This document shows, in pieces, positions 3,684 to 12,203 of a stretch of 12,203 bases of DNA (its first letter is position 1; every line of letters begins with the position of its first letter). The notes beneath the pieces are model-generated. The model saw only the letters and a list, made by a program, of their open reading frames with translations. It did not search any database and was not told the origin of the DNA. This DNA comes from Ferroglobus sp. (GTDB lineage: Archaea > Halobacteriota > Archaeoglobi > Archaeoglobales > Archaeoglobaceae). The position numbers and the translations under genes are program-made. The stretch covers positions 1 to 12,203 of the forward strand of contig WAQS01000149.1 in the NCBI GenBank assembly GCA_015520115.1, written 5' to 3'.

Positions 3684-4605
3684 CTTCAGCCCCCCTGTTT
3701 CTCCCCTTTGTTAAAATTAACTCCACATCGTAACCGTTTACGATCTCTTTAACTTCATCGATATTTATTTTTTCTGATACAAGATATAGTGTCGGTCCAG
3801 TGGAGCTCATCCCGCAAGCCCCAAGCTCTTGTAACTTCTTCATTAGCTTTCTGAACTCCTCTCCGTACTGATTTACCTCAGCTTTTTTAAATCCGATTTC
3901 CTGGATTCTCGAAATCGCTGAAGAAAACTCCTCAAGATCTTTCTCTGCCACAGCCGGAAGGAGCTTCATCAGTATTATGTGGCAAAGTTCCCTAACCTCT
4001 TCAATTTTTACCGGAGTGTTTTTCTCAAACAAATCGACTTCTTTCTTCCCAAAAAATCCCTTCTTTTCCGGAATTATCAAGCAAATTTCCCAATCGGGAA
4101 AATCGAGTCTCGAAATGAGAGGGGCTGGAGGGGCGTTGCTGAAAGCGGAAGGTAAAAAGCTGTTCTTAACTTTTTTCGAATGCCCTCCGTCAACTATAAA
4201 GCCGCCAAACTCAAAAGCGGCAACGCCTATTCCAGAAGTCCCTCCCCTCTTGGTTATTCTTGCTATTTCTCTCGTGCTTAGGTTCAATCCGTACAGTTCG
4301 GAATAAGCTTTCCCCACTGCCAGACTTATCTGAGTTCCGCTACCCAAACCAACATGAGGCTTGTAATCGGAAATGACCTCGATTTTTATCCCTCTTCCAA
4401 ACCTCTCTTTGAAAATTTTTGCGACGTATTCAAACCTGTCCCTATTAAAAGACTCGCCCGCTATCTTTACATCCTCCGCTTTTTCGGCTCTAATTTTTAT
4501 GTAAGGTTCCTCAAGAGCGAAACCCACTCCCCCATCGATCCTGCCTATTTCACCGTTTAAGTCTATCAGAGTAACGTGAATCCTTGAGGGTGTTCTTATG
4601 ATCAT
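3673..4605 (-). CDS. Beta-ribofuranosylaminobenzene 5'-phosphate synthase (methanopterin biosynthesis)
   Basis: A 310-residue GHMP-kinase-fold enzyme. Beta-RFAP synthase joins phosphoribosyl pyrophosphate to p-hydroxybenzoate/p-aminobenzoate with loss of CO2 and pyrophosphate, the committed step toward the tetrahydromethanopterin arylamine. Visible marks are the N-terminal RTPSRIHVTLIDLNG, the glycine-rich loop HVGLGSGTQISLAVGKA (84-100), GGTSGIGVAAFEFGGFIVDGG (121-141), and the C-terminal GACGMSSTGPTLYLV (262-276). Length fits the family. From memory, the A. fulgidus enzyme was the one characterised biochemically and its gene lies beside nop5, as here. The ATG overlaps the upstream stop as ATGA. 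GHMP kinases such as homoserine kinase are alternatives by fold, but the IHVTLIDLNG and GTSGIG motifs favour RFAP synthase. Confidence 0.9.
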   Translation of the reverse strand: MIIRTPSRIHVTLIDLNGEIGRIDGGVGFALEEPYIKIRAEKAEDVKIAGESFNRDRFEYVAKIFKERFGRGIKIEVISDYKPHVGLGSGTQISLAVGKAYSELYGLNLSTREIARITKRGGTSGIGVAAFEFGGFIVDGGHSKKVKNSFLPSAFSNAPPAPLISRLDFPDWEICLIIPEKKGFFGKKEVDLFEKNTPVKIEEVRELCHIILMKLLPAVAEKDLEEFSSAISRIQEIGFKKAEVNQYGEEFRKLMKKLQELGACGMSSTGPTLYLVSEKINIDEVKEIVNGYDVELILTKGRNRGAEVEV

Positions 4606-5204
4606 ATCCTCTCAAGCTCCACCTTTTTTAAATAACTTTTTGATTTTAAGTCAACAACGTAAGCCTCCGGAGCAATAACAGGCAATTCGTAGCCGGTAAA
4701 TATCCTCATAATCTCCCCTGCTTGGATGCTGCAAGTTATGGAGTAAGAGATCGGATTTTCTTCAATCTGCGGCATCTTGACTTCGAAAAAGCTAACGCCG
4801 TCTGGAAGAAAGGTTGTGATTATTTTAGGAATGAATGGGACACCAAGCTCTTCAGCAATTTTCGCTGCCACATCCTCGTATTTGTGGGCGACGACGACGT
4901 CTATCCCCCTCAGTTGTCTTTTCAATTCTTTGTAGTCGTGGGGGTAGGGATAACTTATCACGCAGCTGTCCGGATTTGGATGCATCACGTCATAGTCGTT
5001 TGCATCGAGATAGTCGTAAGTGGGGTCAATTCGAACGTCCATTGGTGTGACGACATCCCCTATGTACCTTATACAACCAACTCCGCATCTCCAAAGGATT
5101 TCTGCGAGCATTCTGCTTCCTATAACTGCTACGCTAAACTTCCTCAGATACTCTATTTTTTCGTAGTCCGCCATTTCAAACCAGAAGATGTGCTTGAAAT
5201 TCAT
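4602..5204 (-). CDS. Degenerate ThiF/MoeB (E1-like) Rossmann protein of unknown function
   Basis: A 200-residue protein with no confident functional assignment. Residues 24-48 (SVAVIGSRMLAEILWRCGVG and on to YIGD) look like the beta-alpha-beta nucleotide-binding start of ThiF/MoeB/HesA proteins. Residues 155-197 (ITCSIQAGEIMRIFTGYELP, then VVDLKSKSYLKKVEL) match the usual end of that domain. The GxGxxG loop is changed to GSRMLA, the adenylating Arg/Lys/Asp set is not obvious, and there are no CxxC zinc pairs, so it may bind a ligand without adenylating. It is also shorter than MoeB/ThiF (~240-270). It lies between the HTH-CBS regulator and RFAP synthase with ATGA overlaps on both sides, so a role with one of them is plausible. 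The ATG has a good ribosome site (AAGGTGAT). A second in-frame ATG at residue 11 is less favoured. Confidence 0.72.
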   Translation of the reverse strand: MNFKHIFWFEMADYEKIEYLRKFSVAVIGSRMLAEILWRCGVGCIRYIGDVVTPMDVRIDPTYDYLDANDYDVMHPNPDSCVISYPYPHDYKELKRQLRGIDVVVAHKYEDVAAKIAEELGVPFIPKIITTFLPDGVSFFEVKMPQIEENPISYSITCSIQAGEIMRIFTGYELPVIAPEAYVVDLKSKSYLKKVELERI

Positions 5205-5752
5205 CCCTTAATCACCTTCATGACATCGTGTTTTGTAATTATCCCAAGTATCTTATCTTTCTCAACCACCAAAACAGCTGGGCTGTTTAAAAGCATCTTG
5301 GAAATGTTTTCAAGAGACTCGTCCGGAGGTATTGCCGGAAGAGGGTCTTCCATTATCTCCCTAACCTTTATTTCAACGAGAGAATCCGCCCCTTTTTCGA
5401 TCATTCTTTTTATTATAGCTGATTCCGTTACGGTTCCGACAACCTTCCCCCTCTCGATGACCGGGATCTGGGAAATACCTTTCTCCCACATTATCTCTAT
5501 AATTTTCTTTGCCGTGTCGTTTGGAGAAGCAAAGATGACGTTCGGATTCATTATTTTCTTAGCTGTCATTTTTCCCTCAAGCTCGTCGAGAACTTTGAAT
5601 ATCTTTTTTATGAGAGAGAGCTTTGGATCAAGGTCTCCGCTTTCGAGCCTTGCTATAAGAGGTTGGCTAACTCCAACAAGCTCAGCCAGCTTTTTTTGCG
5701 TCAACCCTAATTTCTTCCTCCTCCTTTTGATTTCTTCAATTTCGTAGAACAT
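5201..5752 (-). CDS. XRE-type HTH transcriptional regulator with two CBS domains
   Basis: A 183-residue predicted DNA-binding sensor. Residues about 4-60 form a Cro/C1 (XRE) helix-turn-helix (RRRKKLGLTQKKLAELVGVS, then PLIARLESG). They are followed by a CBS pair: CBS1 about 66-118 (IMNPNVIFASPNDTAKK to GTVTESAIIKRM) and CBS2 about 125-182 (VREIMEDPLPAIPPDESLEN to GIITKHDVMKVI). CBS pairs commonly bind adenosine nucleotides or SAM, so ligand-dependent repression or activation is likely, though ligand and targets are unknown. I chose the ATG at 5752; a TTG two codons upstream is possible. No strong ribosome site precedes it, and a weak TATA-like CTTTATCA lies about 29 bases upstream on the minus strand, so a leaderless message is possible. 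It overlaps the next gene as ATGA and lies 36 bases after the radical SAM gene. Confidence 0.9.
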   Translation of the reverse strand: MFYEIEEIKRRRKKLGLTQKKLAELVGVSQPLIARLESGDLDPKLSLIKKIFKVLDELEGKMTAKKIMNPNVIFASPNDTAKKIIEIMWEKGISQIPVIERGKVVGTVTESAIIKRMIEKGADSLVEIKVREIMEDPLPAIPPDESLENISKMLLNSPAVLVVEKDKILGIITKHDVMKVIKG

Positions 5753-5788
5753 CTTCAACTCAAAATTTCGAAGGAAAATTGATAAAGC

Positions 5789-9968: not shown

Positions 9969-10655
9969 GTGTCCGGAAAAGTGTACATCGTAGGAGCTGG
10001 ACCGGGAAACTTCGAACTTCTGACGATAAAAGCACTCAGAGCTCTTATAGAGGCAGATGTAGTTTTGCACGACTCCTTAATCGGAGAAGAAATCTTGGAA
10101 AAACTAAAGGAAATGGGAAAAGAACTCATCAACGTGGGGAAGAGGAAAGGCAGCAATAGAAGGCAAGAGGAAATTAACGAACTGATGGTCAGACTCGCAA
10201 GAGAAGGGAAAATCGTGGCGAGGTTGAAGGGGGGAGATCCGTTCGTTTATGGAAGGGGGTACGAGGAAGTTAAAGCTTTAAAGGAAAACGGAATAGACTA
10301 CGAAGTTATTCCCGGAATAAGCTCGATAACTCTTCCGTCCTTCTACGAAATCCCGTTAACAAGGAGCGGAGTTAGCAAGAGCATAGTCGTTATTCCGGGG
10401 AACATAAAAGAGGAAGAAGTGGAAGTGTTGCTAAAAAACTCGACTTTCGTCGTGCTAATGGCGAGAGATTATGCGGAGAATATAAAAAAAATTCTAACAA
10501 AAGTTGGAAAGCCAGAAGATTGCCCAGCTGCTATAATCGAGAACGGATCTACAAAAAAAGGTAGAACAATTTTCTGCAAGCTCAAAGAGCTACCGGAAAG
10601 AATGAAAGAAGTCAGAGGTGTGGCGATGGTGGTGGTGGGAGAAGCGATCGGATGA
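9969..10655 (+). CDS. cobA: Uroporphyrinogen-III C-methyltransferase (SUMT/CobA)
   Basis: A 228-residue tetrapyrrole methylase that uses SAM to methylate uroporphyrinogen III at C2 and C7, giving precorrin-2. Precorrin-2 is the branch to siroheme, cobamides and the archaeal heme route. Motifs are KVYIVGAGPGNFELLTIKAL (4-23), ADVVLHDSLI (29-38), VGKRKG (56-61), VARLKGGDPFVYGRG (83-97) and YEVIPGISS (111-119). It is a stand-alone methylase without the CysG dehydrogenase/chelatase part. The segment after IPLT reads RSGVSKS instead of the usual HRG, so it is somewhat divergent, but RLKGGDP is strongly SUMT-like. The GTG at 9969 gives the usual N-terminus. It lies 22 bases after the methyltransferase gene and 52 bases before the CBS gene. 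Confidence 0.88.
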   Translation: MSGKVYIVGAGPGNFELLTIKALRALIEADVVLHDSLIGEEILEKLKEMGKELINVGKRKGSNRRQEEINELMVRLAREGKIVARLKGGDPFVYGRGYEEVKALKENGIDYEVIPGISSITLPSFYEIPLTRSGVSKSIVVIPGNIKEEEVEVLLKNSTFVVLMARDYAENIKKILTKVGKPEDCPAAIIENGSTKKGRTIFCKLKELPERMKEVRGVAMVVVGEAIG

Positions 10656-10674: not shown

Positions 10675-10707
10675 GCAAAAAATAGAGATTATCCGGGAGG
10701 TGGTGTT

Positions 10708-11877
10708 GTGGAAGATTGGTTGAAAGAGTTAATCAGATACGACTTCGAGATTGTTAACGCTGAAGATACGATCTCAAAGGTTTTTCCTCTTCTTGACAAA
10801 CTCGATCAGGATAAGGCTGGAGCCATACTCGTGATGGAGAACGGAAAAGTTTACGGGGTTGTTAGAGAGAAAGACCTGCTGAGAACAAGTGTCCTCGTAA
10901 ATCCCCACGAAACAAAGGTTAAAAGTGCTGCTATAAGAACGGGAATAATCAACATAAACGATCTAACTCTTGAAAAAGTCCTAAGGAGGTTCATAGAGGA
11001 CTCGACTCCCTTTGTCGTCATAAGGGAAAACGGAAAGTACGGAGTGATATACATAAACGACTTACTTGAAGCTCTTAAAGACAGGCTGAAGGACAAAAAA
11101 GCGAGGGACGTCATGAATCCCAACGTCGTTACGATAAAGGCTCATGAAAGTGCGGCGAAAGCACTGGCTTTAATGAGGACGAACGGAATAGACAGACTTG
11201 TCGTTGTGGATGATAACCACAGGGTTGTGGGAGTTATAACCGGTAAAGATATAATTGACAGAATCGTCGCTCCAAGGAGAAGAGCAAGGCTCGGGGAGGA
11301 GAAGGGAGAAAAGGACAAAACTCTTTCAATAATGGTCGAAAGCATAATGAGTTATCCTCCGGTGACTGCTGAAAGAATGGACAATTTAGCTGACGTTGTG
11401 GATCAGATGCTCGAACATAAAGTTTCGAGCGTTGTGATAGTTTCCAAGGACAACACTCCAGAAGGGATCGTGACGAAAAAGGACATACTCGAAAGTTTAA
11501 TAAAGGAGGCTGCTCCTTCCCAATTGAAAGTCGAACTCGTCACGAGGGACATAACGCTCGACGAATTTGATAAGGAAGCGATAAACAAGGATCTCGACAA
11601 CTTCATGAGAAAGTTCGGAGAGTTCCTTGGAGAAAGCTACATGTTCGTTTACATAAAAAGGCATAAGGACGTTTTCAGGGCTTTACCGTTAATTCACGTA
11701 AGAATGAAGCTTACGAGCGAAAGAGGAACGTTCTTCGCTTCCGGAGAAGGTTGGGGTGTGGAATACGCCATCCACGCAACCCTCAAAAAGCTTGAAAGGG
11801 AGATACTCAAGGAAAAAGAGCTTCTGCACGATCACAAGATGATCAGAAGGTTCTACGAAGAAGTTCTTGAGTTTTAA
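10708..11877 (+). CDS. Four-CBS-domain protein with C-terminal HPF/RaiA-like domain (possible archaeal ribosome hibernation factor)
   Basis: A 389-residue protein. Four CBS repeats occupy about 13-62, 70-125, 132-186 and 210-266 (third: ARDVMNPNVVTIKAHESAAK; each ends in a GVV/GVI-type strand and K/N-D-helix), forming two Bateman modules likely to bind adenine nucleotides. A C-terminal domain (about 271-375) follows. Its end, FFASGEGWGVEYAIHATLKK then LEREILKEKELL, aligns by eye with E. coli HPF (HASAEGQDMYAAIDGLIDKL, then ARQLTKHKDKL), and the start QLKVELVTRDITLDEF fits the first HPF strand and helix. I infer a nucleotide-sensing ribosome-binding protein acting in the cytosol. The start is the GTG at 10708, with GGAGG 7 bases upstream; the frame stays open further 5' into cobA, but that stretch (tryptophan-rich, reading cobA's own bases) looks non-coding. 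fae follows after 9 bases. Confidence 0.87.
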   Translation: MEDWLKELIRYDFEIVNAEDTISKVFPLLDKLDQDKAGAILVMENGKVYGVVREKDLLRTSVLVNPHETKVKSAAIRTGIININDLTLEKVLRRFIEDSTPFVVIRENGKYGVIYINDLLEALKDRLKDKKARDVMNPNVVTIKAHESAAKALALMRTNGIDRLVVVDDNHRVVGVITGKDIIDRIVAPRRRARLGEEKGEKDKTLSIMVESIMSYPPVTAERMDNLADVVDQMLEHKVSSVVIVSKDNTPEGIVTKKDILESLIKEAAPSQLKVELVTRDITLDEFDKEAINKDLDNFMRKFGEFLGESYMFVYIKRHKDVFRALPLIHVRMKLTSERGTFFASGEGWGVEYAIHATLKKLEREILKEKELLHDHKMIRRFYEEVLEF

Positions 11878-11886
11878 GGTGATAGC

Positions 11887-12203
11887 ATGGAAATGAGAAT
11901 AGGTGAGGCTTTGATAGGAGTTGGAAACGAAGTGGCACACATCGATCTGATGATAGGAACCAAAGACAGTCCAGTTGCTCAGGCTTTTGCTAACGCTTTG
12001 TCGCAGCTTTCTGCTGGACACACTCCTCTTTTGGCTGTGATACGACCTAACCTGATCACAAAACCTCCGGCTGTAATAATTCCCAAAGTGACGATAAAAG
12101 ATATGAAGCAAGCTGAGCTGATATTTGGTCCGGCTCAGATGGCAGTTGCTAAAGCTATAGCCGATGCCGTCGAGGAGGGAATAATTCCGAAGGAGAGGGC
12201 TGA
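11887..12203 (+). CDS. fae: Formaldehyde-activating enzyme, N-terminal part (3' end outside window)
   Basis: The first 105 codons of Fae, which speeds condensation of formaldehyde with tetrahydromethanopterin to methylene-H4MPT. It has the family's near-invariant blocks: [19 protein letters not shown] with the catalytic His18, [33 protein letters not shown], and [20 protein letters not shown]. The ATG follows an AGGTGAT ribosome site, 9 bases after the CBS-HPF stop, so the two are probably co-transcribed. The window ends before the usual Fae C-terminus (~170 residues). In Archaeoglobus and methanogens Fae can be fused to hexulose-6-phosphate synthase, where it works with ribulose monophosphate-pathway pentose synthesis; the missing end decides which form this is. 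Confidence 0.95.

Follow-up and report, generated by a model that had tools for sequence, protein, structure and literature searches.

What does a protein do in an archaeon when its four CBS domains are followed by a C-terminus resembling the bacterial ribosome hibernation factors HPF and RaiA? The question is raised by a gene at positions 10708-11877 (+) of a 12,203-nucleotide stretch of a Ferroglobus sp. genome, hereafter the window, and the gene is delimited as 389 aa plus a stop codon by its open reading frame, its match to PDB 9sr9_H and a Ferroglobus placidus relative. We put at about 95% the probability that its product is HibA, a factor of ribosome hibernation in archaea with a proposed 30S/50S binding mode and 70S protection. 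A first-pass annotation of this DNA had read an HPF/RaiA-like domain joined to four CBS domains, and the Pfam CBS stretches, a profile search, a domain model and Foldseek bear this out; its domain-level reading was correct, and the family has already been described (2026).

Pfam finds CBS in four stretches of the protein (E 4.2e-38), all on the plus strand like the rest of the gene. CBS domains 1 (10723-10899, about residues 6-64) and 2 (10903-11085, about residues 66-126) were delimited approximately from Pfam and the secondary structure of the model; CBS domain 3 (11101-11268, residues 132-187) is the best Pfam stretch, and the boundaries of CBS domain 4 (11329-11511, about residues 208-268) are approximate, from Pfam, the model and alignment. 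Between the last two lies a loop (11275-11328, residues 190-207) that aligns without gaps to the P. abyssi loop assigned to the peptidyl-transferase centre (PTC), from which its role is taken (PMC13324472). The C-terminal HPF/RaiA domain (11515-11874, residues 270-389) rests on profile search, domain model, Foldseek and VIA-align. Architecture, fold, loop and orthology are established directly in this analysis.

The match of the C-terminus to HPF/RaiA exceeds chance. Searched with a profile built from 32 C-terminal domains (the window protein and 31 of 33 reference sequences), the PDB gave 14 sequences at E <= 1, led by two CBS-HPF proteins (E 4.6e-28 and 3.6e-26) and followed by 11 bacterial HPF/RaiA-type chains (E 0.0019 to 0.24), with one unrelated chain at E 0.39. 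Among the 32 domains, 27 match Ribosomal_S30AE (PF02482) at E <= 0.1. The domain was modelled alone because the CBS half fills the match list of the full-length model, whose best 50 PDB matches listed are CBS-containing chains only. For residues 270-389 by themselves, every one of the 34 Foldseek matches at E <= 0.001 is a chain of HPF/RaiA/pY type, the outcome that the first-pass annotation had anticipated from structure prediction. The deposited HibA structures were absent among the structure-search matches listed and were found by sequence search instead. Profile search, Foldseek and VIA-align together rule out a chance resemblance. The two strings on which the annotation had relied, FFASGEGWGVEYAIHATLKK and LEREILKEKELL, are present in the protein, and its description of them as aligning residue by residue with E. 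coli HPF was too strong, the identity by VIA-align being 22% over 95 structurally aligned residues. The HibA paper gives two archaeal insertions in the HPF domain relative to bacterial HPF (PMC13324472); in the alignments listed, S. aureus HPF aligns to the archaeal C-terminal profile with gaps of 3 and 2 residues, which may or may not correspond to them.

The same results bear on whether this is a four-CBS regulator of another kind, either the transcription regulator HhpR or a standalone CBS module, with a C-terminus that is merely HPF-like. NCBIfam HhpR (NF053603) does match residues 101-192, but at 44 bits, far under its cut-off of 520, and HhpR was rejected on this score. With HPF/RaiA/pY-type chains the sole matches of the C-terminal domain at E <= 0.001 and a HibA match that runs nearly end to end, such a regulator is very improbable. 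A Dri-type double CBS module, with eight CBS domains, was likewise rejected, the window protein having four CBS stretches only and then the HPF/RaiA domain.

Identity as HibA is carried by the comparison with P. abyssi HibA (PDB 9sr9 plus seven other entries; PMC13324472), which also has four CBS domains and a C-terminal HPF/RaiA domain. Residues 20-385 of the window protein match PDB 9sr9_H nearly end to end (E 1.3e-42), the lengths are near-identical (389 vs 392 aa), and the PTC loop occupies residues 190-207 in the same numbering, gapless, with 8 of 18 residues identical. Several points weigh against this assignment. The full-length protein scores 15.9 bits against PF02482 (residues 277-371, E 0.022), under the curated gathering cut-off of 23.7, and the C-terminal domain alone, at 19.4 bits, is still under it; by these scores the protein does not qualify as a bacterial-type standalone HPF/RaiA. 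Identity to P. abyssi HibA is 27% in the CBS part (66/245) and 32% in the HPF part (37/116). The full-length structure model has a mean predicted local distance difference test (pLDDT) score of 79.5, and its sole stretch under 50, residues 189-204, falls on the PTC loop, which is therefore placed with low confidence. Our literature searches found no measurement on any Archaeoglobales protein and nothing relevant on ribosome hibernation in Archaeoglobus, and the main text of the HibA paper contains no word beginning with 'Archaeoglob' (PMC13324472).

What HibA does is known from two other archaea. It was discovered by cryo-electron microscopy in stressed P. abyssi. There the mRNA channel of the 30S subunit accommodates its C-terminal domain, and the CBS module was seen in three positions on the 50S; the protein obstructs the sites for mRNA and tRNA and acts as an inhibitor of translation in vitro (PMC13324472). 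HibA of Thermococcus barophilus preserves 70S ribosomes: when it is deleted, about 60% less 70S is present and the lag lasts 4 hours instead of 2; 47% of archaeal genomes carry HibA (PMC13324472). By analogy with the work in these two species, the window protein would bind ribosomes, inhibit translation, preserve 70S particles and bind nucleotides, and the ribosome-inactivating function that the first-pass annotation had proposed is supported by orthology to HibA.

Other known systems resemble the window protein less closely. PDB 9l96_a, a CBS domain-containing protein of 406 aa, likewise has CBS stretches ahead of this C-terminal domain (profile E 3.6e-26), but over the N-terminal half it matches less well and in separate pieces; we found no paper in the literature for PDB 9L96, 9L98, 9L9C or 9L9V. 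Bacterial HPF/RaiA (PF02482) differ in being without CBS domains and in their identity of about 22% to the window protein. Dri of Pyrobaculum calidifontis (PDB 9e6q, 9e7f) consists of two fused CBS modules, and an HPF/RaiA domain is not described there; for Dri in Sulfolobus acidocaldarius our literature search found no paper. Two further proteins can be likened by description, not by sequence: aRDF of Pyrococcus furiosus is also an archaeal ribosome-inactivating factor but joins 30S subunits into dimers and keeps 70S ribosomes from assembling (PMC11724365), and HVO_2384 of Haloferax volcanii, described in 2025 as a CBS protein that carries a hibernation-factor domain, differs in having been co-purified with a Pat2 variant (PMC12607858).

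A model for the Ferroglobus protein can be proposed on this basis. The HPF/RaiA domain would occupy the mRNA/decoding channel of the 30S subunit, the four-CBS module would sit on the 50S side at places normally held by tRNAs, and the 18-residue loop could reach the peptidyl-transferase centre. 70S ribosomes would thereby be silenced and protected during stress and return to work on recovery. CBS3 and CBS4 probably bind an adenylate between them, with adenosine monophosphate (AMP) as the first choice. A stronger version, advanced in the first-pass annotation, is an energy switch in which engagement of the ribosome by the HPF domain is governed by AMP or the triphosphate (ATP) bound at the CBS module. 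Asp181 of CBS3 and Asp259 of CBS4 are invariant in 58/58 aligned rows (rows fetched from among the genome matches, near-copies included), P. abyssi HibA-CM binds AMP, the diphosphate (ADP) and ATP with affinities of 12, 65 and 113 uM and about one nucleotide per module (PMC13324472), and an energy link was called plausible for HVO_2384 in the mBio 2025 paper on Haloferax Pat2 (PMC12607858). However, in P. abyssi reconstitutions AMP left the classes and their distribution unchanged, ATP added one weakly populated state, and the HibA authors report no clear nucleotide effect on ribosome binding in assays that lacked mRNA/tRNA competition (PMC13324472). Because P. abyssi HibA binds these nucleotides, AMP best, without a clear effect on its ribosome binding, the switch is the weaker idea and, by analogy, appears unlikely for the window protein.

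HibA is widespread in the family. A hibA match at E <= 1e-30 occurs in 52 of 55 Archaeoglobaceae genomes, in one of them (G012) in two pieces, and in all 40 of good quality; the three genomes without a match are 78 to 89% complete. Matches in 173 of 295 genomes are not a count of HibA, since many of the weaker rows may match CBS domains alone. A distinct second copy, which we call clade B, is present in 11 of the 55 Archaeoglobaceae genomes (G003, G004, G010, G011, G013, G014, G022, G024, G025, G031, G032). Nine of these also have the usual copy, clade A, and G003 and G031 showed the second copy only. The 11 distinct clade B rows (L046, L047, L048, L050, L051, L052, L053, L090, L091, L092, L093) are split off from all other rows by a branch supported at 100/100 in a 49-row tree, and the divergent G032 copy is assigned to clade B by this tree, not by identity. 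The window protein is an ordinary clade A form, and no clade B copy was found in its genome.

The two clades differ at the PTC loop. Pro189 and Gly200 are present in 47/47 clade A rows, the window included, and in 0/11 clade B rows; counted from 189 to 206, the loop has 18 residues in 46/47 clade A rows (17 in the other) and 19 in clade B. In the HPF domain, Arg324, Pro327, Trp349, Gly350 and Arg364 are kept in 58/58 rows of both clades. The clade B change is not confined to the loop, because residue 319 also differs, being His in 38/47 clade A rows and Leu in 11/11 clade B rows. P. abyssi HibA keeps Pro189 and Gly200, and of eight distant rows aligned, five keep Pro189 and three have lost it (L096, L098, L103), two of these carrying long insertions. 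Since the loop varies in distant relatives, a changed loop alone is no sign of a new role. Two of the eight distant rows, the archaeal CBS proteins L105 (398 residues) and L106 (393 residues), follow the window protein as far as about residues 303 and 276, respectively, and have a different C-terminal region. A tentative possibility is that part of the Archaeoglobaceae carry two HibA paralogs with divided work, the loop having been rebuilt in clade B and the HPF positions kept. The clade B form may keep ribosomes in a different state, for instance that of the L1-stalk or uL5 position, or be used under another stress. The main-text passages of the HibA paper on paralogs and duplication describe no two copies in this group (PMC13324472).

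The first-pass annotation had also placed the protein in a lineage without classical hibernation factors, which holds narrowly and fails more broadly. The window's genome, 90.7% complete, yielded no PF02482 match above the cut-off. Of its two sub-cut-off matches the better is hibA itself, and the second (C277:2987-3160, 13.2 bits) is adjoined by open reading frames that we take to encode ribosomal proteins. The genome does have an SBDS gene and a CBS protein like that of the SriA/SriB complex. SBDS has been observed on idle P. abyssi ribosomes (PMC13324472). The CBS protein (L003:1219-2148 (-), contig C71) has 309 residues and four CBS domains only; its best PDB match is 9znf_5, chain 5 of the Methanosarcina 70S-SriA/SriB complex (E 6.2e-69), the next is MJ1225 (1.6e-59), and it occurs in 53/55 Archaeoglobaceae genomes (E <= 1e-40). 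Its gene adjoins one for a CBS protein with a cysteine-rich C-terminus. Our literature search found no relevant paper on SriA/SriD. The CM-1, CM-2, CM-4 and CM-5 modules rarely co-occur with HibA (PMC13324472), and the CBS-only protein could bear on this exclusion between HibA and standalone modules if it is indeed one of them.

The hibA start codon, read from the sequence, is GTG at 10708, preceded at a distance of 4 bases by GGGAGGTGG (10695-10703 (+)), a likely Shine-Dalgarno sequence. An alternative GTG at 10618, giving a longer open reading frame, is an unlikely start because it overlaps the upstream gene. The product is 96% identical to the F. placidus protein, and also 96% identical to that of a second Ferroglobus genome in our set. 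Judged by its named relatives, the window would belong in or close to Ferroglobus, Archaeoglobaceae. Genes for a DNA cytosine methyltransferase and a uroporphyrinogen-III C-methyltransferase lie 5' of hibA, and fae (formaldehyde-activating enzyme; 11887-12201 (+)) lies directly 3', cut by the window end. This adjacency recurs at Ferroglobus-type and Geoglobus-type loci, and fae was found next to hibA at none of the other loci examined, so the neighbourhood offers no functional clue. Elsewhere in the window, a 185-residue protein (5201-5758 (-)) that has a helix-turn-helix at its N-terminus as well as two CBS domains is likely a ligand-responsive transcription regulator, and a 200-residue open reading frame (4602-5204 (-)) between it and a GHMP-kinase-like gene has no Pfam match at E <= 0.001.

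Identification of HibA in Ferroglobus adds to a published hibernation family a group that goes unnamed in the main text of the article on HibA (PMC13324472). The interest that remains lies in the paralogs and in adenylate control, and the nine genomes that carry both a canonical and a changed loop constitute a natural test of the PTC loop.
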